From Nocardiopsis ganjiahuensis DSM 45031 (GTDB taxonomy: Bacteria > Actinomycetota > Actinomycetes > Streptosporangiales > Streptosporangiaceae), in the NCBI RefSeq assembly GCF_000341085.1, contig NZ_ANBA01000009.1, forward strand, positions 248,001-312,000: a stretch of DNA of 64,000 nt, read 5' to 3'. Every line of letters starts with the position of its first letter. Positions within the stretch are counted from its first letter, which is position 1. Below the pieces are notes generated by a model. That model was given only the letters and a program-made list of their open reading frames with translations, ran no database searches and was not told the DNA's origin. Positions 36,595-49,450 of the stretch are shown here, piece after piece. A program made the position numbers and the translations under genes.

Positions 36595-38405
36595 GTGGAT
36601 TCCTCCGTGGTGTGGTCGGAGACGGTCAGGGGGAGGCTCGCGCGCAGAGCTCTGCGGAAGCGCAGGTCGGCGCTGGAGGTGTTGAGCCAGAACGCGCCGC
36701 TCTTCGTCTGCAGGACGCGCCCCTCCCAGGAGGCCTCGCTGGCGGACTCGATGAGTTCGTCGCCCAGCCGCGCGACGGTGGCACGCACGGTGAGCTGCCA
36801 TTCCCGGCGCTGTTCGGTCGGGTAGCGGGGATCGTCCAGGGGGTCCTCCGCTCCGTCGGCGGTCCCGGCGGCGGGCACCAGTTCGCTCAGCCAATTGCGG
36901 AAGGGGGCGTCGAGGTCGCCGAAGGCGCGGTCGCGGGCGGTGGCGCGCGGCCCGTCGCTCTCGGCCCCGGCGGCCTGGGCCAGGCCGGTGGCCAGGTCGC
37001 CCAGGGCGGTGACGGCGTCCTCGGCGTCGGTGACCGCGTCGACGGCCTCCCGGGCCAGTTCGCGGTTGCGTTCGTGCAGCAGGACCACGGGCATGGCGAC
37101 CGCGTCGTCGACGATCTCGTCGATGACGGACTGCTGGGTGCCGTAGACCGCTCCGACCAGCCGGGCCCGCAGGAGGTACCCGCGGGGCAGGTAGCCGTCC
37201 ACGGTGAGACGGGCGATCCATTCCAGGACGCGGGGGCGCACCTTCTCGGCCGCTTCCTGGCGCTGGTCGGCGCCCCGCACCTTCCCGGTGACGAGGGCGC
37301 CCAGGCCGCGCCAGGCGGCGCGGGTCGGGTCGTGCTCCCGGGGCAGGTAGACGGTGGTCTCGCGGAGCTTCTTCTCCTGGGCGGGGCTGCGCCGCCAGGC
37401 GGACATGGGTTCGCGCGGATGCATGTTGCGGGGGGTGAGCGGGTCGCCGTAGGCGAGCAGGACGCCGTGCACCCCCTCGGTGTCGTGGTGCAGGCGCAGG
37501 CGGCGGCTCTGCCAGGTGTAGAGGTCACGCAGCCCGTGGGGCCGGGAGGCCGCCTCTACGGGTTCCAGGGGTGCGGCGGTGGTGGGCGGGTGGGCCCAGG
37601 CGGGGCGGTCCCGGCCGGGTTCGGTGGCGGTCTCGAGGTTGGGGGTGTCGAAGGCGATGAGGTTGAGCAGGAGGGTCTGGCACAGGTCGTCGCCCTCCGC
37701 GTACACCCCGCCGAGGTTGCCCGCCCAGCCGACGCCCTGGGGGTAGCCCTTACCGCCCTTCACCCGGGGGTCGCCCTCGGCCCCGGACTTGATGCCCGAG
37801 GGGTCGTAGGCGTGAGCGTGCACCACCCAGCGGGCGGCCTCGGCGTGTCCGAGGCGCCGCGCTCCGTGGGCGCGCATGGTGAAGAACCGGGCCCCGTTGG
37901 GCACGTCGGCGACCATCCTGTCCAGCGCCGAGTACTCGCCCTTGCCGGTGTGCAGGTCCGCGACCTGGAGGAAGGGAATGCGCGGATGCAGGAGGTCGAA
38001 GCGCTCGCGGTGGGTGTCCAGGTAGGCGCGCAGCTCTTCCAGGGGCAGGCCCTCTTCCCACAGGTCTCCCCAGTCCTCGATCTCCTGGGGGCCGTCGAGC
38101 GCGTCGTGCAGGACGGCCAGGAGCAGGCGCAGGAGCGCGAAGTCCTGGGTGGGCACGTCGCCGACCAGGCGGCGCACGTCCGCGGCCTGCTCGAAGACCT
38201 CGGTCAGGGACAGTTCGGCTTCGGTGCCGTCATTGCGCAGCACCGGGACCCAGGGACTGCGGGTGAGGTCGAAGGTGGGCGTGGCCGTGTGGTCGGACCC
38301 GGGCACGGGTTCGGATGCGGGTCCGGGGGCCGCGGGCCCGGGTGTGTGCTCGGTCGGGGGTGCGGTGGTGGACGCAGATCCGGATGGGGGTGTCTCACTC
38401 GGCAC
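36591..38405 (-). CDS. cas8e: Cas8e (CasA/Cse1) Cascade large subunit
   Basis: 604-aa large subunit that reads the PAM and recruits Cas3. After about 45 Pro/Ser/Thr-rich residues with no family match, FDLTRSPWVPVLRNDGTEAELSLTEVFEQA is the standard Cse1 opening. PTQDFALLRLLLAVLHDAL, LLHPRIPFLQVADL, AARWVVHAHAYDPSGIKSG and GVGWAGNLGGVYAEGDDLCQTLLLNL are clear family blocks. The C-terminal four-helix bundle lies in about residues 410-590. The GTG at 38405 has GGAGG six bases upstream, inside the cas3 gene (11-base overlap). The low-complexity N-terminus is unusual and could shorten if an internal start is used. Confidence 0.93.
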   Translation of the reverse strand: MPSETPPSGSASTTAPPTEHTPGPAAPGPASEPVPGSDHTATPTFDLTRSPWVPVLRNDGTEAELSLTEVFEQAADVRRLVGDVPTQDFALLRLLLAVLHDALDGPQEIEDWGDLWEEGLPLEELRAYLDTHRERFDLLHPRIPFLQVADLHTGKGEYSALDRMVADVPNGARFFTMRAHGARRLGHAEAARWVVHAHAYDPSGIKSGAEGDPRVKGGKGYPQGVGWAGNLGGVYAEGDDLCQTLLLNLIAFDTPNLETATEPGRDRPAWAHPPTTAAPLEPVEAASRPHGLRDLYTWQSRRLRLHHDTEGVHGVLLAYGDPLTPRNMHPREPMSAWRRSPAQEKKLRETTVYLPREHDPTRAAWRGLGALVTGKVRGADQRQEAAEKVRPRVLEWIARLTVDGYLPRGYLLRARLVGAVYGTQQSVIDEIVDDAVAMPVVLLHERNRELAREAVDAVTDAEDAVTALGDLATGLAQAAGAESDGPRATARDRAFGDLDAPFRNWLSELVPAAGTADGAEDPLDDPRYPTEQRREWQLTVRATVARLGDELIESASEASWEGRVLQTKSGAFWLNTSSADLRFRRALRASLPLTVSDHTTEEST

Positions 38406-41313
38406 GGGTGACCTCCAGGCCGTCGGATTCGGTGTAGTGGAGCCGGTGTCCGGCCAGCTCGGCCCGGTCGTCCTCGTCCAGGAACAGGACCAGTTCCCCG
38501 GCGATCCAGTGGGCCTCCTTGGTCTGCCAGGCATCGACCAGGTCGGATTCCAGCTCGGCGATGGTGCGTTCGATCATCTGGCCGGTGAGGGTGAACTGGT
38601 AGGGCAGGCGGAGCCCGCTGGCCGCGAGGGCGCGGGCGGCCTCGGGCGCGGGAACGGACTCAGTGGGCAGCGGCAACCCGCCGCGCTGCCCGCTCAGCCA
38701 CGGGACGGTGGTGGCGGTGCCGTCGGCGCAGCGGCGGGCGACCAGCACCTCCAGGCTCTCGCCGGTGTCGCGGACCTGTGCCTTTCCGCTCTGGCTGTCG
38801 TCGGCCTCACCGATCCCTGCATCCACCCAGCCGATGATCGCCCTGCCGTCGCGGGCCGCCGGGTCGAGGAGGAAGGTGCGGGCGCGGGTGGCCTTGTCGG
38901 CCTGTTCGGCCTCCTGGGTGATGCGGGCCCTGTCCAGGGCCTGGGTCCAACCGGCCGGTGCGGTGCCGGCGTGGTCTCCGGCGTCGCGGTAGGCGGCCTG
39001 GACGAGCGGACTGATGTGTTCGGGCAGCCGAAGGGTGCGGGCACTGTCGGTCTGCGCTTCGAGGTGCGGGCGGAGCACGGCGAGGGCCCGCAGGAGCGGG
39101 TACTCGCCGTAGACGGTGCGCGAGCCGCGCACCGGCCGGGGCGGGGTCTCGGTCCAGTCCACTCCGGTGATCAGGCAGCGAGCCGTGCGCAGGCGCGGCG
39201 GGCGCTGACCCTGCCCCTCTCCCCTGGGGTGGCGGTGCAGTCGGCCCATGCGCTGCAGGACCAGGTCGAGCGGGGCGAGGTCGGTGACGAGCAGGTCGAA
39301 GTCCACGTCCAGGGACTGCTCCACGACCTGGCTGGCCACCACGATGTGCCGGGCGGGGCGGGTCCCGCCGGATTCGGCGACCTTGGCCGGCGGGCCGTAC
39401 TCGCGCAGGAGCTGTTCGTCCCGGGCAGCGCGGTCCAGGTCCAGGAAGCGTGAGTGGGCGACGGTCACCGAGGCGTCGCCGAAGTGGTCGCGCAGGTGCG
39501 CGGCGGTCTCGTGGACCCGGGCGACGGTGTTGCGGATGACGAGGGCACAGCCGCCATCTGCCAGTTCCCGCTCCAGGCGGTCGGTGAGGGTTCCGGGGTC
39601 GTCGTCCAGGGGTTCCACCAGAACGTCCGTGGCCCGACCGGAAGCGGCGGGGGTGTACAGGCGCGGTACGGTGCCGGGTTCGGCGGTGGTGATCAGCGGG
39701 TAGGCGTCGGCCCGGCCGACCTCCGCGTACCCCTGCTCGTCGCCCGTGCGGGGTGAGGCCCCCGTGTACGCCTGGGCGAGTTCGCGCCTGCGCCGGGCCG
39801 GAAGTGTCGCGGAGAGCACGATGACGGGCACGCCGTACCTGCCGAGCCAGGCCAGGGCGCGGTCGAGGTAGGTGTTCATGTAGGTGTCGTAGGCGTGCGC
39901 CTCGTCGATCACGACGACCTTTCCCGCTAGGGCGAGGTGGCGCAGGGTCAGGTGTTTGCTCTTGAGGCCGGTGAAGAGGAGCTGGTCGACGGTGCCGACG
40001 GAGAAGGAGGAGAGCATGCCCTTCTTGCGGCCGCGCAGCCAGCGGTGGGCGACCAGTGCCGCGGCGCCGGGTGTGCCCTCGGAGTCCCGGTCGGTGTCCG
40101 TGGCCAGGCGGGGGCCGCCCCCGAGGTAGCGGGAGAACTCCTTGTTCAGGTGGGCCTTGGAGTGCGCGAGGAAGATGGAGGCTGCTTCCCGGGGCATGCC
40201 GGGGAGGCGGTCCAGCCAGTGGGTGAAACGGGCGAACATCGCGTTGCTGGTGGCCATGGTGGGCAGGGCGACGAAACAACCGCCCGCACAGGTTTCGGCG
40301 GCGAGGATCTCGGCGGCGGTCAGGGCGGCCTCGGTCTTGCCCTCGCCCATGGGCGCTTCGATGATCATCAGGCCAGGCCCGCTCATGTTCCGGGCGGCTT
40401 CGACCGCCTGTTCCTGGACCGGCCGCGGTAGGGCTCCGTCAGGCAGGTCGAACCGTTCGGCGAAGAGTTCGGCCGCGGTACCCCGGGGTTGCTGAGGGCT
40501 CCACTGGTGTGGGAGGCCGAGGAGGCGCCAGGCCTGCTCCGAGCGTTCGGGATCCGTGCTGCGTTCGCCTGGGAAGTAGGGAAAGTAGTCGGGGTTGCTG
40601 GCGATCCAGTCGGCGGTGATGACCAGGGCGGTGAGCAGGACCTGGGCGGTCTGCGGGAGTTTGACGGTGCGCCAGTGCGCGAGCCGGGCGGCGGCCCCGG
40701 TGGCGTGGGCGGCGGTGTCCAGGAGTTCGGTCTGGACCTGCTGCCAGGCGGGGGCGCTGCCACGGGTGCGCAGGAGGGCCGGGTGGTCGTCCAGGTCCGT
40801 GATGGCGGAGTTGGTCGGCGGGATGCCGTGGTGGCCACCGGCGACGACCGTGAACTGGTGGGTGTCGCGGAGCCGCCAGCCGTGCTGTTCGACCAGCCAG
40901 TCCCGGAGGAGGAGTTGGCCCGCGAGGCCGTGCGGGGCGAGGCGGCGATCGGCCATCTGCTTCTGCAGGGGCATGTCGAGGCCGTGCGCGCGCATGTCGT
41001 CCGCGAGGTGCTCGACCTGGCAGGCGAAGGCGGGGGTGGCCTTGCCGATGTCGTGGGTGGCGGCCGACCAGAGGGCGAGCAGGCGGGCGTCCGCCTCACC
41101 TTCGGGGAGGGCCGAGGCGATGAGGGAGCGGACCTGCCCGGGAAGCCACTCGTCCCAGAGCTTGGCCGCGACGAAGGCGCTGTCGGCCATGTGGCGGTAG
41201 AGCGGAAGCCAGCCGTCGGAGTCGAAGTCGTGCTTGGCCCACACGCTGCGAGCGGCCTCGGAGAGGGGGTCCCTCCAGGGCTGGGAAGGGGGGTGGGGGG
41301 TCATGGTGCCCAT
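38395..41313 (-). CDS. cas3: Cas3 HD nuclease-helicase
   Basis: 972-aa fusion of an HD nuclease and a superfamily 2 helicase, the DNA-degrading effector of type I interference. HD domain: RHMADSAF (His41), the HD pair His87-Asp88 in ATHDIGK, and VAGGHHGIPP. Helicase: Walker A APMGEGKTEA (about 322-331), DEAH box in VVVIDEAHAYDTYMN (about 470), SATLP, then RNTVARVHETA, VVEQSLDVDFD and QRMGRLHRH. The C-terminal domain ends in GLEVTRAE. It is the first gene of the operon, starting at ATG 41313 or at 41304 (MTPHPPS). All motifs are intact. Relic repeats lie upstream. Confidence 0.96.
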   Translation of the reverse strand: MGTMTPHPPSQPWRDPLSEAARSVWAKHDFDSDGWLPLYRHMADSAFVAAKLWDEWLPGQVRSLIASALPEGEADARLLALWSAATHDIGKATPAFACQVEHLADDMRAHGLDMPLQKQMADRRLAPHGLAGQLLLRDWLVEQHGWRLRDTHQFTVVAGGHHGIPPTNSAITDLDDHPALLRTRGSAPAWQQVQTELLDTAAHATGAAARLAHWRTVKLPQTAQVLLTALVITADWIASNPDYFPYFPGERSTDPERSEQAWRLLGLPHQWSPQQPRGTAAELFAERFDLPDGALPRPVQEQAVEAARNMSGPGLMIIEAPMGEGKTEAALTAAEILAAETCAGGCFVALPTMATSNAMFARFTHWLDRLPGMPREAASIFLAHSKAHLNKEFSRYLGGGPRLATDTDRDSEGTPGAAALVAHRWLRGRKKGMLSSFSVGTVDQLLFTGLKSKHLTLRHLALAGKVVVIDEAHAYDTYMNTYLDRALAWLGRYGVPVIVLSATLPARRRRELAQAYTGASPRTGDEQGYAEVGRADAYPLITTAEPGTVPRLYTPAASGRATDVLVEPLDDDPGTLTDRLERELADGGCALVIRNTVARVHETAAHLRDHFGDASVTVAHSRFLDLDRAARDEQLLREYGPPAKVAESGGTRPARHIVVASQVVEQSLDVDFDLLVTDLAPLDLVLQRMGRLHRHPRGEGQGQRPPRLRTARCLITGVDWTETPPRPVRGSRTVYGEYPLLRALAVLRPHLEAQTDSARTLRLPEHISPLVQAAYRDAGDHAGTAPAGWTQALDRARITQEAEQADKATRARTFLLDPAARDGRAIIGWVDAGIGEADDSQSGKAQVRDTGESLEVLVARRCADGTATTVPWLSGQRGGLPLPTESVPAPEAARALAASGLRLPYQFTLTGQMIERTIAELESDLVDAWQTKEAHWIAGELVLFLDEDDRAELAGHRLHYTESDGLEVTRAE

Positions 41314-41929: not shown

Positions 41930-41979
41930 CAGTTCAAGGCTTCTGCTGAACCAGCTTCCGGCCCTGCGTTCATCTCAGC

Positions 41980-42619
41980 AGGATCATCCTCACGTGCGCG
42001 AGGAGTATCTGCGCGCCAAAACGGACGAGTACACCCGCTGGGGTCTATCCCCGCGTGCGCGGGGAGCAGGCTCCGTACCGTTCGATCTTGGTGTGGATCC
42101 CGGGTCCATCCCCGCGTGCGCGGGGAGCAGCCGTTCGGGGTGGGCGGGTAGGGCTCGAACCCGGGTCCATCCCCGCGTGCGCGGGGAGCAGGACCATGAC
42201 GCGACACGTGCCGCGTACCTGTGGGGTCCATCCCCGCGTGCGCGGGGAGCAGTCGACCTTGAACCAGGCCATCAGGGAGTGTTCCGGGTCCATCCCCGCG
42301 TGCGCGGGGAGCAGCGGGGGGTGGCTGCGCTGGTCATGGCGGGTGCGGGTCCATCCCCGCGTGCGCGGGGAGCAGTTCTCCGAGATCCAGTAGGCAACCT
42401 CCTGGTAGAGTCCATCCCCGCGTGCGCGGGGAGCAGGTGCTCTGCCCAGGTGTCCCAGGTGCCGGGGCGGGTCCATCCCCGCGTGCGCGGGGAGCAGCGG
42501 GTGAGGGCTTGGACGAGGGCGTCGTTCATGGGTCCATCCCCGCGTGCGCGGGGAGCAGTTCCGTTTCGTTCCGTCATATCGTTCTGTTTCGGGTCCATCC
42601 CCGCGTGCGCGGGGAGCAG
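41980..42619 (-). CRISPR. CRISPR array 3, type I-E, 11 repeats and 10 spacers
   Basis: Repeats start at 41980, 42041, 42102, 42163, 42224, 42286, 42347, 42408, 42469, 42530 and 42591. The leftmost copy has at least five changes and the next has CTATCC for CCATCC, so the left end is the old, distal end. The copy at 42408 begins GAG for GGG. All spacers are 32 bases except 42253-42285 (33). The leader is on the right at 42620-42738. Confidence 0.97.
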
Positions 42620-42738
42620 TCTCAATGACCTGCAGTTTTAAGGAGCAAAGATGCTGGAATCTGCACGTTGTTGAGAGCCAGACATCAAAGACAAAAGTTG
42701 CAAAATCACCCAAAACCCCTTCAGTTTCCTTTGCGAGC
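42620..42738 (-). promoter_or_regulatory. Leader of CRISPR array 3
   Basis: AT-rich stretch up to the NUDIX stop. It shares ACCTGC, AATCTGCA-GTTGTTGA, GACA-CAA and ATCACCCAAAA with the leader of array 4 and TGACCTG with that of array 2. The position of the leader dyad (from 42664, 44 bases out) is kept, but the palindrome itself is degenerate (CACGTTGTTGAGAGCC). Confidence 0.7.
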
Positions 42739-44098: not shown

Positions 44099-44186
44099 CG
44101 TGCCCAAGCAGAGCCCAAAGCAGTCACCTCGCTCCACAGAGTGAAGGGTGTGCCGCTGCTCTACAGGTGAGGGAGAGGGGACAGCC

Positions 44187-45062
44187 ATGTCGTGTGACCG
44201 CGGGATAGACGTGGGTAACGGCGATGGGCCACAGGAAGAACCGGGGACGAGGTGGGAGGGGTTCGGAGCTCGGGTGTGGGCCGCGCGCAAACAGCAGCAC
44301 TTGCGGCTCGGCATGCTCGCCGACATCACCCTGACCACCCCGGAGCTACTCCAGGAAGTGGAGGCCGGAGACCTGGACCCCGGCAGGCGGCTGGCTCAGG
44401 ACCTGGACCGCACCCTGAGCTGCGGTGGTCGGCTGTGGGACGCCTGGGCGCGAACCCACCTCACCGAACTCCTCCAACGACCGGCAACCATCACCGACGT
44501 CCTCCCAGAAACCTTCCAGGTACGCGCCTACGCGCCCCTCGTTCTGCCCGCCCCCTACCGGACCAGCAGTTACCAGGCCGCCCTGGATCAGGTCGAACAC
44601 CCCATGGACTCGGCTCGGCTGGACTCCGACAGCCCCCACCTGCCCCGCCTGAACACGGCTGGCACGGGTGGAGCACCCTTTCACTGCCTGGTCGTGAACG
44701 AAACCGCCCTCACCCGGAGCTCCACCGAGCCCGAGGTCATGCGTGCTCAACTGGTGCACCTGCATCACCTGGCCCAAACCGTCGGGATCAGCGTGCACCT
44801 CATCCCGACCAGCACCGCCTTCCACCCCGGCCTGGGCGGAGCGTTCTGGACCCTGTCCTACTCCCCCAGCCACACCCTGGCCTACGTCCCCCACCCGCGC
44901 GGCCAGGGTCAGATCATCAACTGCGTATCCCAGGTCAAGAGCTACACGGACCTGTTCGCCACTCTCCAAGGAGCCGCGCTGCCGGTGGAGGAGTCCCAGC
45001 AGCGGCTGGTCGAACTCGCCTCCCGTATCCGCTCGACACTGACGCGGGCACTCGCGAAGTAG
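44187..45062 (+). CDS. Helix-turn-helix regulator with DUF5753 domain
   Basis: 291-aa XRE-like protein. A short N-terminal HTH (about residues 20-75: FGARVWAARKQQHLRLGMLADITLTTPELLQEVEAGD) leads to a DUF5753 domain (about 105-285) with the hallmark YAPLVLPAPYRTSSYQAAL, ALTRSSTEPEVMRAQLVHL and a terminal segment LAYVPHPRGQGQIIN. Such proteins are abundant in actinomycetes, often next to small acidic partners or to RsbW-like ATPases. The ATG at 44187 has GAGAGGGG upstream. A promoter is at 44070-44098. It heads the cassette that runs to the methyltransferase. Confidence 0.85.
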   Translation: MSCDRGIDVGNGDGPQEEPGTRWEGFGARVWAARKQQHLRLGMLADITLTTPELLQEVEAGDLDPGRRLAQDLDRTLSCGGRLWDAWARTHLTELLQRPATITDVLPETFQVRAYAPLVLPAPYRTSSYQAALDQVEHPMDSARLDSDSPHLPRLNTAGTGGAPFHCLVVNETALTRSSTEPEVMRAQLVHLHHLAQTVGISVHLIPTSTAFHPGLGGAFWTLSYSPSHTLAYVPHPRGQGQIINCVSQVKSYTDLFATLQGAALPVEESQQRLVELASRIRSTLTRALAK

Positions 45063-46264: not shown

Positions 46265-46443
46265 ATGGTATCCGGGAGGCCGAAGGCCACCGGACGCTCG
46301 ATCTCCCTCCGGAGGGCCGCTGCACCGGGTTGACCAACCAGTCGCGCGGGCCGGGCAGCATCGGCCCGTACGGCTCTATCGCCTCCCAACATGCCGCCCA
46401 CCGAGTGATCGCGGCAGACCCCCCTTTGAGAGGACAGACTTGA
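46265..46443 (+). other. Two possible very small overlapping ORFs before the peptide gene
   Basis: In the 216-base gap there is a 22-codon ORF (46265-46333) with GAGGTGAGG before its ATG. A 37-codon ORF then starts at TTG 46330 and stops at 46443. Each stop overlaps the next start by four bases (TTGA), and the chain continues into the 49-residue ORF at 46440. Whether these are translated cannot be told by eye; frequent TTG/GTG codons make chance overlap possible. Confidence 0.3.
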
Positions 46444-46589
46444 AGATCCCGACCCCCCGGGCCACCGCGGACAAGCACCCGAAGCTCACCGACAGCGACG
46501 GACACCGGCCCACTCGCCCCTCCCCCGCACGAACCCCCGAAGGCAGCGGCTCCCACGGCGGCAAGCACGAGAGGCACGACAAGCAATGA
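46440..46589 (+). CDS. Candidate RiPP precursor peptide (49 aa), imiditide-like
   Basis: Starts at TTG 46440 with GAGAGGA five bases upstream, and its TGA overlaps the methyltransferase ATG (ATGA). No other start exists in this frame upstream. The peptide is hydrophilic and basic, with many Lys, Arg and His, no Cys, and four Asp (11, 18, 20, 47). Asp20 is followed by Gly21, a sequence prone to form aspartimide; Asp47 lies in the basic tail GGKHERHDKQ. Charge-rich linear precursors coupled to a PIMT-like enzyme are what I recall of the imiditide family. The assignment is inference from size, composition, coupling and the enzyme. Confidence 0.6.
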   Translation: MKIPTPRATADKHPKLTDSDGHRPTRPSPARTPEGSGSHGGKHERHDKQ

Positions 46590-47716
46590 TCCCCTCACAC
46601 GAAAAGCTCGTCGCCCACCTCCTCCAGGAGGGCGTCCTCTCTCCCCGCTGGCGCCGCACCTTCGAACTCGTGGAGCGCCACAGGTTCCTGCCCGACCAGG
46701 TCACCCTGCCCGACGGCACCTCCGTGGACCGGGCCGGCGCTCCGGAACAGTGGCTCGGAGTCGCCTACGACGACACCCCTCTCATCACCCGGGTGGACGA
46801 CGGCGTCGAGGACTGCAGGGGATATCCGAGCGGTTGGGCGCCCATGCCCTCCGTCGTCGCCGACATGCTGCGCCGACTCGACCTCCGTCCCGGCATGCGG
46901 GTCCTGGAGGTCGGTACGGGAATCGGGTACAACACGGCACTGCTCTCCCACCTCCTGGGCGAGGAGGAGGTCACCACCATCGAGGCCGACCCGACCGTCG
47001 CCGAGCAGGCACGCGTCAACCTCATCGGCACCGGGTTCGTACCTCTGGTCGTCACGGGTGACGGGGCACAGGGTTGGCCCGCACGCGCCCCGTTCGACCG
47101 GGTGATCAGCACCGCGGCAGTGAAGCGGGTGCCCTACCACTGGATCGCCCAGAGCCAGCCGGGCGGAAGGATCCTCACCCCTTGGGGCACCGCCTTCCAC
47201 AACGGGGTGCTGGCTGACCTGGAGGTCGGCCAGCGCGGCACTGCGAGCGGACGGTTCTGTGGCGACGCCGCCTTCATGTGGGCGCGAGGCCGACGGCCCC
47301 TCGGCCAAGCGGTGGCGACCTTCGTCAGCGACGAGCACGAGTTCAGGGCCAGACGCACCGGCATGGAACCGAACGCTCCGTTGGCGTTCGACGCGAGCTT
47401 CGCGATCGGGCTGCACATGTCCACCGTGATCAACACGATCGAGTTCCCCGAGAGCGGCGACGACCAGCAGTTCGTCGTGCACCTGGTCGATCCCGACAGC
47501 GGTTCCTGGGCTTCCTGGCACGTAGAACCGGGCTCGACCTCCCACGAGGTTCGCCACTACGGGCCCCGGAACCTGTTCGCGGAGTTCGAGGCGGCCTATC
47601 AGTGGTGGCTCGACTCCGGCAGCCCCGCCATCGACCGGTTCGGTATGACCGTGTCCGTGGACCAGCAGACCGTCTGGTTGGACGAAGCGGCGAACGTCAT
47701 TTCATCGATGCCCTGA
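46586..47716 (+). CDS. PIMT-like O-methyltransferase of RiPP type
   Basis: 376-aa SAM-dependent protein-isoaspartate-methyltransferase homologue. SAM motif I is VLEVGTGIGYNTALL (106-120), preceded by GWAPMPSVVADMLRRLDL. GDGAQGWPARAPFDRVISTAAVKRVPYHWIAQSQPGGRIL covers motifs II-III. Housekeeping PIMTs stop near 220 residues; here about 140 more follow, ending WWLDSGSPAIDRFGMTV...QQTVWLD. That C-terminal W-x-G-x-P-x-DRFG-x-TV-x-VWLD type motif marks methyltransferases tied to lasso, graspetide, lanthipeptide and imiditide clusters. No ATP-grasp, LanB/C/M or lasso genes are nearby, which leaves a two-gene imiditide-like arrangement as the best reading. Array 4 starts 82 bases downstream. Confidence 0.85.
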   Translation: MIPSHEKLVAHLLQEGVLSPRWRRTFELVERHRFLPDQVTLPDGTSVDRAGAPEQWLGVAYDDTPLITRVDDGVEDCRGYPSGWAPMPSVVADMLRRLDLRPGMRVLEVGTGIGYNTALLSHLLGEEEVTTIEADPTVAEQARVNLIGTGFVPLVVTGDGAQGWPARAPFDRVISTAAVKRVPYHWIAQSQPGGRILTPWGTAFHNGVLADLEVGQRGTASGRFCGDAAFMWARGRRPLGQAVATFVSDEHEFRARRTGMEPNAPLAFDASFAIGLHMSTVINTIEFPESGDDQQFVVHLVDPDSGSWASWHVEPGSTSHEVRHYGPRNLFAEFEAAYQWWLDSGSPAIDRFGMTVSVDQQTVWLDEAANVISSMP

Positions 47717-47798
47717 CCTCAGCCTGAGGATCGGATGCGGCTGCCGGTTTCACTTGGGTGGCCGGTGGGACAGCGAGGCTGGCGAGGTGTGCGGAGAT

Positions 47799-49299
47799 GG
47801 GCTCCTCCCCGCGTGCGCGGAGAGCAGTGTCGAACAGGACCGGCATATCAGGCCTCCTTGGGTCCATCCCCGCGTGCGCGGGGAGCAGTGGTCTCGCTGT
47901 GCGCGGCCTGCCCCGTGCGCGGGTCCATCCCCGCGTGCGCGGGGAGAAGCCGTCGGGGTCGTCGTCCTCGGGGGCGTTGCCGGGTCCATCCCCGCGTGCG
48001 CGGGGAGAAGGAGCTGCGCTCCTACACGGTCGGCACCGCCCGGGGTCCATCCCCGCGTGCGCGGGGAGAAGCCCGCCATGCCCGGCGGGCGCCCCCGTTG
48101 CGTGGGTCCATCCCCGCGTGCGCGGGGAGCAGCCGCGCGCCGGGACGGCGCCCGCGAGCGGCACGGGTCCATCCCCGCGTGCGCGGGGAGCAGCAGCTGC
48201 CCGGCGACGAGCACATCCGCCGCCTGGGTCCATCCCCGCGTGCGCGGGGAGCAGACTCTGAGCCGATCTGCATGTCAGATCGCCTTGGGTCCATCCCCGC
48301 GTGCGCGGGGAGCAGCGATTCGGACACCGGGCAGTGCGGTGCCAGCTCGGGTCCATCCCCGCGTGCGCGGGGAGCAGTTGATTACCCAGTTAATGGGCTT
48401 TCGCGCGTGGGGTCCATCCCCGCGTGCGCGGGGAGCAGGGCGGCCTTGACCGCGCCACGATGGTGAACCAGGGTCCATCCCCGCGTGCGCGGGGAGCAGG
48501 TCGTGGACCCGTTCGCTGGGTCGGGGTCAACGGGTCCATCCCCGCGTGCGCGGGGAGCAGTCACCCACCGGGTGGAGCAGATCCGTGAGCGGGGGTCCAT
48601 CCCCGCGTGCGCGGGGAGCAGCACAGCGGGCTGAAGAGGGGCACGTCCTACAAGGGTCCATCCCCGCGTGCGCGGGGAGCAGGAAGAGGGCCACAGGGTG
48701 ACCAACCCGGACGTGGGTCCATCCCCGCGTGCGCGGGAAGCAGCTACCCGGACGGGCACCCCGCGTTCGTCCCGTGGGTCCATCCCCGCGTGCGCGGGGA
48801 GCAGCGGTGGGGTGGCCAGGGCCCCCGGGGGGTTTGGGGTCCATCCCCGCGTGCGCGGGGAGCAGCAGGTGGTCCCGGACCTCGTCCAGGGCCAGCGGCG
48901 GCGTGGGTCCATCCCCGCGTGCGCGGGGAGCAGGCGCCGATCGCCTTGAACGCAGGCGCGATCACGGGTCCATCCCCGCGTGCGCGGGGAGCAGGCCTCA
49001 CAGCCCGTCAGATCTACCGCCTCGAAGGGTCCATCCCCGCGTGCGCGGGGAGCAGGAAATCGAGCATGTCGACCCCGTAGTGGTGGCGGGTCCATCCCCG
49101 CGTGCGCGGGGAGCAGCTGATGGCCGTCACCTTCATCTACGCGGCGGTGGGTCCATCCCCGCGTGCGTGGGGAGCAGCCCCGGATGTGACCGACCTGAAA
49201 CTCACGCCGGGGTCCATCCCCGCGTGCGTGGGGAGCAGTGGGGCTTGCCCTTCAGCCCGATCGGTCCGCCGGGTCCATCCCCGCGTGCGTGGGGAGCAG
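47799..49299 (-). CRISPR. CRISPR array 4, type I-E, 25 repeats and 24 spacers
   Basis: Same repeat and period as array 2. The leftmost copy (47799) is degenerate. Copies at 47921, 47982 and 48043 end GAGAAG for GAGCAG, and 48715 has GGGAAGCAG. The three copies nearest the leader (49149, 49210, 49271) share GCGTGGGG for GCGCGGGG, which puts an A/C mismatch in the crRNA stem of the minus-strand transcript. The spacer at 48866-48904 is 39 bases long and that at 48316-48348 is 33; the others are 32. The leader is on the right. Confidence 0.98.
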
Positions 49300-49450
49300 T
49301 CTTGTTCACCTGCGAGTTTGTGGAGCGAGACCCCTCAAATCTGCAAGTTGTTGAAACTTGGACACCAAGAACAAATCACCCAAAAGACCATGAAAAATCA
49401 CTACTTCGACCGTCCTGCCATCCCAACAGTAGAACTTACTCAGGGGACAT
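49300..49450 (-). promoter_or_regulatory. Leader of CRISPR array 4
   Basis: AT-rich stretch with CACCTGC near the junction, a dyad CAAGTT-N5-AACTTG at 49344-49360 (45 bases from the repeat), then ACTTGGACACCAAGAACA and ATCACCCAAAA, all shared with one or both of the other leaders. It runs to the terminator of the murG-like gene. Confidence 0.72.

Follow-up and report, generated by a model that had tools for sequence, protein, structure and literature searches.

Two-gene clusters in which a short Gly/Pro/Asp-rich precursor is encoded together with a PIMT homologue were published as a class in 2023 and named imiditides or type I pamtides (Zhu and Link, PMC13001092; Lee et al., PMC10787088), with NmaA-NmaM from Nonomuraea maritima and SpaA-SpaM from Streptomyces sparsogenes as examples. 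In both SpaA and NmaA, modification requires C-terminal residues of the precursor (PMC10787088, PMC13001092); in NmaA a His follows the modified Asp, and RiPP-associated PIMTs are characterised by a W-x3-G-x-P motif (PMC13001092). Related enzymes occur in cysimiditides or type II pamtides (FcaA-FcaM, TceA, NalA), which are likewise two-gene units and whose precursor carries two zinc-binding CxxC motifs; in group 13 graspetides, where a methyltransferase with a C-terminal extension accompanies the ATP-grasp ligase that these systems require (TIGR04187/TIGR04188); and in housekeeping PIMT (Pcm/PCMT1; PDB 2yxe, 1jg1, 3lbf, 1dl5), which shares the catalytic domain.

We analyzed a 64-kb stretch of DNA from Nocardiopsis ganjiahuensis DSM 45031 (the window), for which an original prediction had proposed an imiditide-type pair: a TTG-started ORF whose stop overlaps the start of a 376-aa PIMT homologue. 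Both elements are present in the sequence. The precursor peptide gene (46440..46589, + strand; 49 codons, encoding MKIPTPRATADKHPKLTDSDGHRPTRPSPARTPEGSGSHGGKHERHDKQ) begins at a TTG preceded by GAGAGGAC, translates to (M)KIPTPRATADKHPKLTDSDGHRPTRPSPARTPEGSGSHGGKHERHDKQ, and ends in a stop that overlaps the ATG of the enzyme (ATGA), whose ORF runs from 46586. Orthologous peptides were aligned in 17 rows (consensus GKHEDNSTSDGHKPDRPIPPPTPNDGGSGGGKHERDDK), and a leave-one-out profile that contained neither the window peptide nor its closest relative was searched against the 959 stop-to-stop segments of the 64-kb window. The window peptide was the sole significant match (E-value 2.7e-9, the next best segment reaching 0.11), and because the profile matches it alone, the ORF is, by homology, a real gene and not a chance reading frame.

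Of the 10 conserved columns the window peptide keeps 8, among them Asp20 and those of the GGKHER tail; it contains no Cys. Unlike most of its Nocardiopsis relatives it has lost the second Asp-Gly-Gly, which is also missing from the peptides of L034 and L051, and it carries the N-terminal extension MKIPTPRATA. The C-terminal tail follows the pattern GGKHERxDK in the alignment, with G41, E44 and R45 nearly invariant, and the segment K42-Q49 (KHERHDKQ, codons 46563..46586, +) is the probable enzyme-recognition region by analogy with SpaA and NmaA.

No Asp other than Asp20 (codon 46497..46499, +) is invariant across the 17 aligned peptides, and P27 and P29 are conserved alongside it; this residue, in the context SDGH, is likely the one that is methylated and converted to aspartimide. 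The original prediction had singled out both Asp20 and Asp47: the first stands as the sole invariant Asp, and the second is part of the basic tail, which is itself conserved. When DNA was searched for a pattern of NmaA-like Asp-His cores, only unrelated sites came up and the characterised NmaA was not recovered. Asn-Gly is a classic site of spontaneous succinimide formation. One Nonomuraea-like clade (L099, L105, L106, L108, L110, L111 and L115), whose genomes would be Nonomuraea, has Asn in place of Asp20 (NGH); an Asn-Gly at this position would fit a succinimide site, and these precursors could be a self-deamidating variant.

Conservation of the small ORF was examined next to orthologous enzymes. 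The same peptide recurs upstream of same-genus orthologues in the same position, and the peptide family directly precedes the orthologous enzyme in many genera. The 17-row profile matched 60 of the 300 family genomes, spread over 22 of 68 genera, though its weakest matches are doubtful; nearly all of the matches with an E-value below about 1e-5 that we opened had the enzyme immediately downstream. Between other genomes of the Nocardiopsis group the peptide is strongly constrained (for instance dN 0.04, dS 0.61-0.62; L041/L048 and L052/L053). The locus adds a Nocardiopsis-centred peptide subfamily whose conservation points to the modified Asp. At L115 a precursor-like sequence, MGKHEDPAEKNGHKPGKPIPLTGG, continues in the reading frame of the methyltransferase, so that peptide and enzyme may be naturally fused. 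An exception to the pairing is L114/L181 (G204:C1:4360842), where an intact-looking type I precursor, MGRHEKPENDGQLPQPVPVPAPDTEGGGRGGRHERDDEEK, stands in a 14-kb region that contains no homologue of the methyltransferase.

The second gene (46586..47716, +) encodes a PIMT-type O-methyltransferase (PAMT) of 376 aa that matches Pfam PCMT (PF01135) with an E-value of 1.1e-31. Solved PIMT structures, searched with phmmer, match residues ~59-233 at most; as these matches end by residue 233, about 140 residues are additional, as had been predicted, and they have no counterpart at the sequence level in housekeeping PIMT. The extension includes the region WWLDSGSPAIDRFGMTVSVDQQ (47603..47668, +), which carries the hallmark of RiPP-associated PIMTs in the form WLDSGSP, within W-L-D-S-G-S-P-A-I-D-R-F-G. 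The predicted C-terminal motif is therefore present, with the spacing W-x3-G-x-P and not W-x-G-x-P. Residues 284-296 form an acidic loop, TIEFPESGDDQQF (47435..47473, +), a candidate counterpart of the NmaM loop implicated in peptide binding; its net acidic count is +4 in the window enzyme, against means of 1.5 in peptide-paired enzymes and -1.2 in a peptide-less sister clade. Structure prediction of the window enzyme from three sequences gave a mean pLDDT of 31 and was left unused, and an Rfam search of the region gave no match.

By comparison with the published descriptions of type I pamtides (PMC13001092, PMC10787088), the pair has the same two-gene layout, with a Gly/Pro/Asp-rich precursor of the ~45-aa type directly before a PIMT homologue and conserved across orthologues. 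It likewise has an enzyme of more than 300 aa with a C-terminal extension and W-x3-G-x-P, a conserved Asp near conserved Pro/Gly (P27, P29), and a charged precursor tail together with an acidic enzyme loop, for which we infer the equivalence to NmaM. Among primary enzymes of other RiPP classes, the search covered the TIGR04187 ATP-grasp and lantibiotic dehydratase, and neither was found in the cluster: the RiPP-type ATP-grasp had no match in the whole genome, and the single, weak Lant_dehydr match lies on another contig, in keeping with the earlier statement that no other RiPP enzymes are encoded nearby. The loci of close orthologues also had no ATP-grasp gene.

To place the enzyme, we used a tree of 112 enzymes labelled according to their neighbouring genes. 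The window enzyme pairs with its Nocardiopsis terrae relative (support 100) within a starred set whose 44 rows comprise type I, decayed type I and peptide-less enzymes; the enzymes of zinc-ribbon (type II) pamtides and the 12 linked to an ATP-grasp are placed elsewhere. The type I label does not form one clade: a Nonomuraea-like set of type I pairs branches separately, and support is weak at the deepest forks. Judged from sequence, the window pair is a type I pamtide/imiditide locus, a class already published. This assignment stands because the small ORF is conserved beside orthologous enzymes and because the enzyme groups neither with ATP-grasp-linked nor with housekeeping enzymes; the central claim of the original prediction is upheld accordingly. 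Three other assignments were rejected. A housekeeping PIMT would be ~210-220 aa long, compared with 376 aa here; the window enzyme is paired with a precursor gene, and it scores 97.9 bits with TIGR00080 against a pimt equivalog cut-off of 159.05. The group 13 graspetides need an ATP-grasp ligase, for which the window genome gave no TIGR04187 match, have Thr and not Ser at residue 86 and group separately in the tree; TIGR04188 covers the window enzyme over nearly its full length, at 300.8 bits, below the model cut-off of 380. For a cysimiditide or type II pamtide, the two CxxCxGxG motifs are absent from a peptide without Cys, and the enzymes of that type lie in another part of the tree.

Where the window enzyme departs from type I pamtides is the substrate-pocket loop. 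We derived an intact loop, [T/S]S[S/T]xS, as a criterion in this analysis (it is not a published one); residues 82-86 of the window enzyme (46829..46843, +) read S-G-W-A-P instead, as seen in the tree rows and in the codon comparison. Ser83 and Ser86 are kept in all 46 other peptide-paired type I enzymes of the tree, where the window enzyme has Gly and Pro; residue 84 is Ser or Thr in the same 46 and Trp here; and residue 69 is Gln in the 46 and Arg here (TR for TQ). In addition, the Thr at residue 113 of the SAM-binding GTGTG loop is replaced by Ile (46922..46924, +), so that the loop reads GTGIG, with Thr or Ser in all other tree rows. Anchored on the following Pro and on Val-x-x-Met-Leu, positions 84-86 align with the Thr-x-Ser motif found in classical PIMTs; in human PIMT the proposed isoAsp site is lined by residues 57-59 (PMC8275801). 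At all of these positions the window enzyme differs from that of N. terrae by point substitutions, with no indels. We rejected a compensated frameshift as the source of the altered pocket loop, because the two genes are equally long and their codon alignment is gapless there. Because the Ser loop and the SAM-loop Thr are lost, the activity of the window enzyme is doubtful, a point that the original prediction had missed.

The closest relative of the enzyme is that of N. terrae (L034/L103), at 81% identity; a single-protein search of genome contigs matched two loci. Among 70 conserved columns, 8 are broken in the window enzyme, 1 in this relative and mostly 0-3 in the others, and where outgroups conserve a site, the window branch has accumulated 25 changes and the N. 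terrae branch 6 (p 0.0009). The enzyme dN/dS is 0.40 for the window/N. terrae pair, compared with 0.20-0.31 for most other close pairs, ~0.35 for pairs with N. terrae and 0.20 for MurG. For the peptide, the window/N. terrae value is ~1.2, from 45 codons only, vs 0.06-0.3 in many other pairs. The N. terrae peptide itself has a stop after KHER, so that its last residues are missing, and that genome holds a second, intact pair at L035. Broken peptides were found in further copies (L038, L040, L045 and L065); each of these decay calls comes from a single genome, in which sequencing errors are possible. The window pair looks to be under weakened selection, a drifting and possibly dying copy. With an intact ORF and a dN/dS (0.40) below 1, the enzyme is not a freely drifting pseudogene; the kept peptide columns and acidic loop would be compatible with continued use or with an altered specificity. 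The family itself looks ordinary, and what looks new here is the impaired state of this copy.

Homology, gene pairing, an invariant Asp and a conserved tail are observed in the window pair itself; the chemistry and the recognition would carry over from the characterised members. By that analogy, an enzyme of the family would bind the unfolded precursor mainly through contacts between its charged C-terminal tail and the acidic loop, and would methylate the Asp of the SDGH core with SAM (Asp20 in the window peptide). The methyl ester would then close spontaneously to an aspartimide, which would open to isoAsp/Asp; the mass shifts expected are +14 and then -18 Da. In the window enzyme, loss of the Ser loop and of the SAM-loop Thr probably leaves weak or no activity on Asp20. 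The reading that we favour with fair confidence is that of a type I pair which in this strain is a diverged copy under weakened selection, with an enzyme probably impaired in this way, and is likely heading to loss. The set of loci offers a natural series of intact, half-broken and lost copies, and since the N. terrae copy is altered in the peptide and the window copy in the enzyme loop, the roles of the tail and of the pocket loop are directly testable.

A fully working imiditide, in which the altered loop is still catalytic or has adapted to a changed peptide and the fast evolution of the peptide reflects diversifying selection on a bioactive product, appears unlikely to us. Intact ORFs with ATGA coupling, the retention of Asp20, tail and acidic loop, and an enzyme dN/dS below 1 all speak for it. 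It must nonetheless accommodate a loop in which Ser/Thr have become Gly, Trp and Pro and a SAM-loop Ile in place of Thr, changes found in no other peptide-paired enzyme of the tree, as well as a closest relative whose peptide stops before its last residues and a window branch on which conserved sites have changed in excess.

A sister clade within Nocardiopsis bears on another alternative. It comprises PIMT homologues without a precursor (L046, L047, L058-L061, L063, L064, L067, L069, L070, L159 and L160), in which the conserved Ser86 is replaced by Pro or Cys. Their neighbourhood is a recurrent one, with a divergent XRE-like gene upstream and, in most, a HATPase gene downstream. The window enzyme might now serve another substrate, or bind without methylating, a shift that this clade may also have undergone, but we hold this to be improbable. 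Pro86 is shared by 9 of the 13 sister-clade enzymes, all 13 loci are without the peptide, a HATPase gene adjoins most, and one pair has a dN/dS of 0.20; another pair, however, has 0.76, and the window locus, unlike the sister clade, retains the acidic loop and a recognisable peptide, with its HATPase gene upstream of the pair and deleted in N. terrae. More narrowly, there is a slight chance that the change from Ser to Gly/Trp/Pro made the window enzyme a PIMT-like partner-binder without classical Asp methylation, in parallel with the sister clade, which has Pro in place of the same Ser, has lost the precursor and mostly remains beside an RsbW-type HATPase gene. It is highly implausible that the enzyme once served a graspetide or lanthipeptide pathway and was orphaned by the loss of the main enzyme: its top NCBIfam match is indeed the ATP-grasp-linked TIGR04188, but below the model cut-off, the ATP-grasp-linked enzymes cluster elsewhere in the tree, and the adjoining peptide belongs to the type I pamtide family.

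Upstream of the type I pair, on the same strand, lie genes for an XRE-type regulator with DUF5753 (44148..45062, +; PF19054, E-value 4.7e-26), for a HATPase_c_2 protein and for a protein of 178 aa that matched no family. The original prediction had read these as the pair's own regulator genes, which our comparison does not bear out. Other orthologous pairs do not have the HATPase and 178-aa genes in front of them. N. terrae lacks 880 bp here, comprising the HATPase gene and some of the 178-aa gene, and matches the regulator only partially. XRE/DUF5753 genes do recur near such loci, within ~3 kb of a type I enzyme in six genomes (G000, G003, G005, G007, G015 and G033), yet at differing positions and against a background of 15-64 copies per genome. 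As G007, G015 and G003 probably share one ancestral arrangement, the link between DUF5753 and type I loci is suggestive.

The block that holds the locus is flanked by two CRISPR arrays (window 41979-42629 and 47798-49375) with the same 29-nt repeat and 61-nt period, with a Cas3-like gene at 38395-41313; repeat-like sequence also flanks the N. terrae locus. Elsewhere in the genome that contains the window, L054 (G000:C3, ~100.4-101.9 kb) is a zinc-ribbon (type II) pamtide pair whose precursor ends in CGACKGDGGAWVTNDGATPGKNIGRWVPCGSCKGSGSV and whose PIMT homologue has an intact pocket loop. The third PIMT homologue of this genome, L055 (G000:C12), belongs to a clade of nine enzymes for which no precursor was recognised; this clade lies close to that of the type II pamtides. 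Clustered RiPP loci were seen in two cases: at L065 a type I pamtide remnant adjoins a graspetide-type ATP-grasp and methyltransferase, and in the L056 region a type I pair lies ~6.5 kb from a lantibiotic dehydratase gene.
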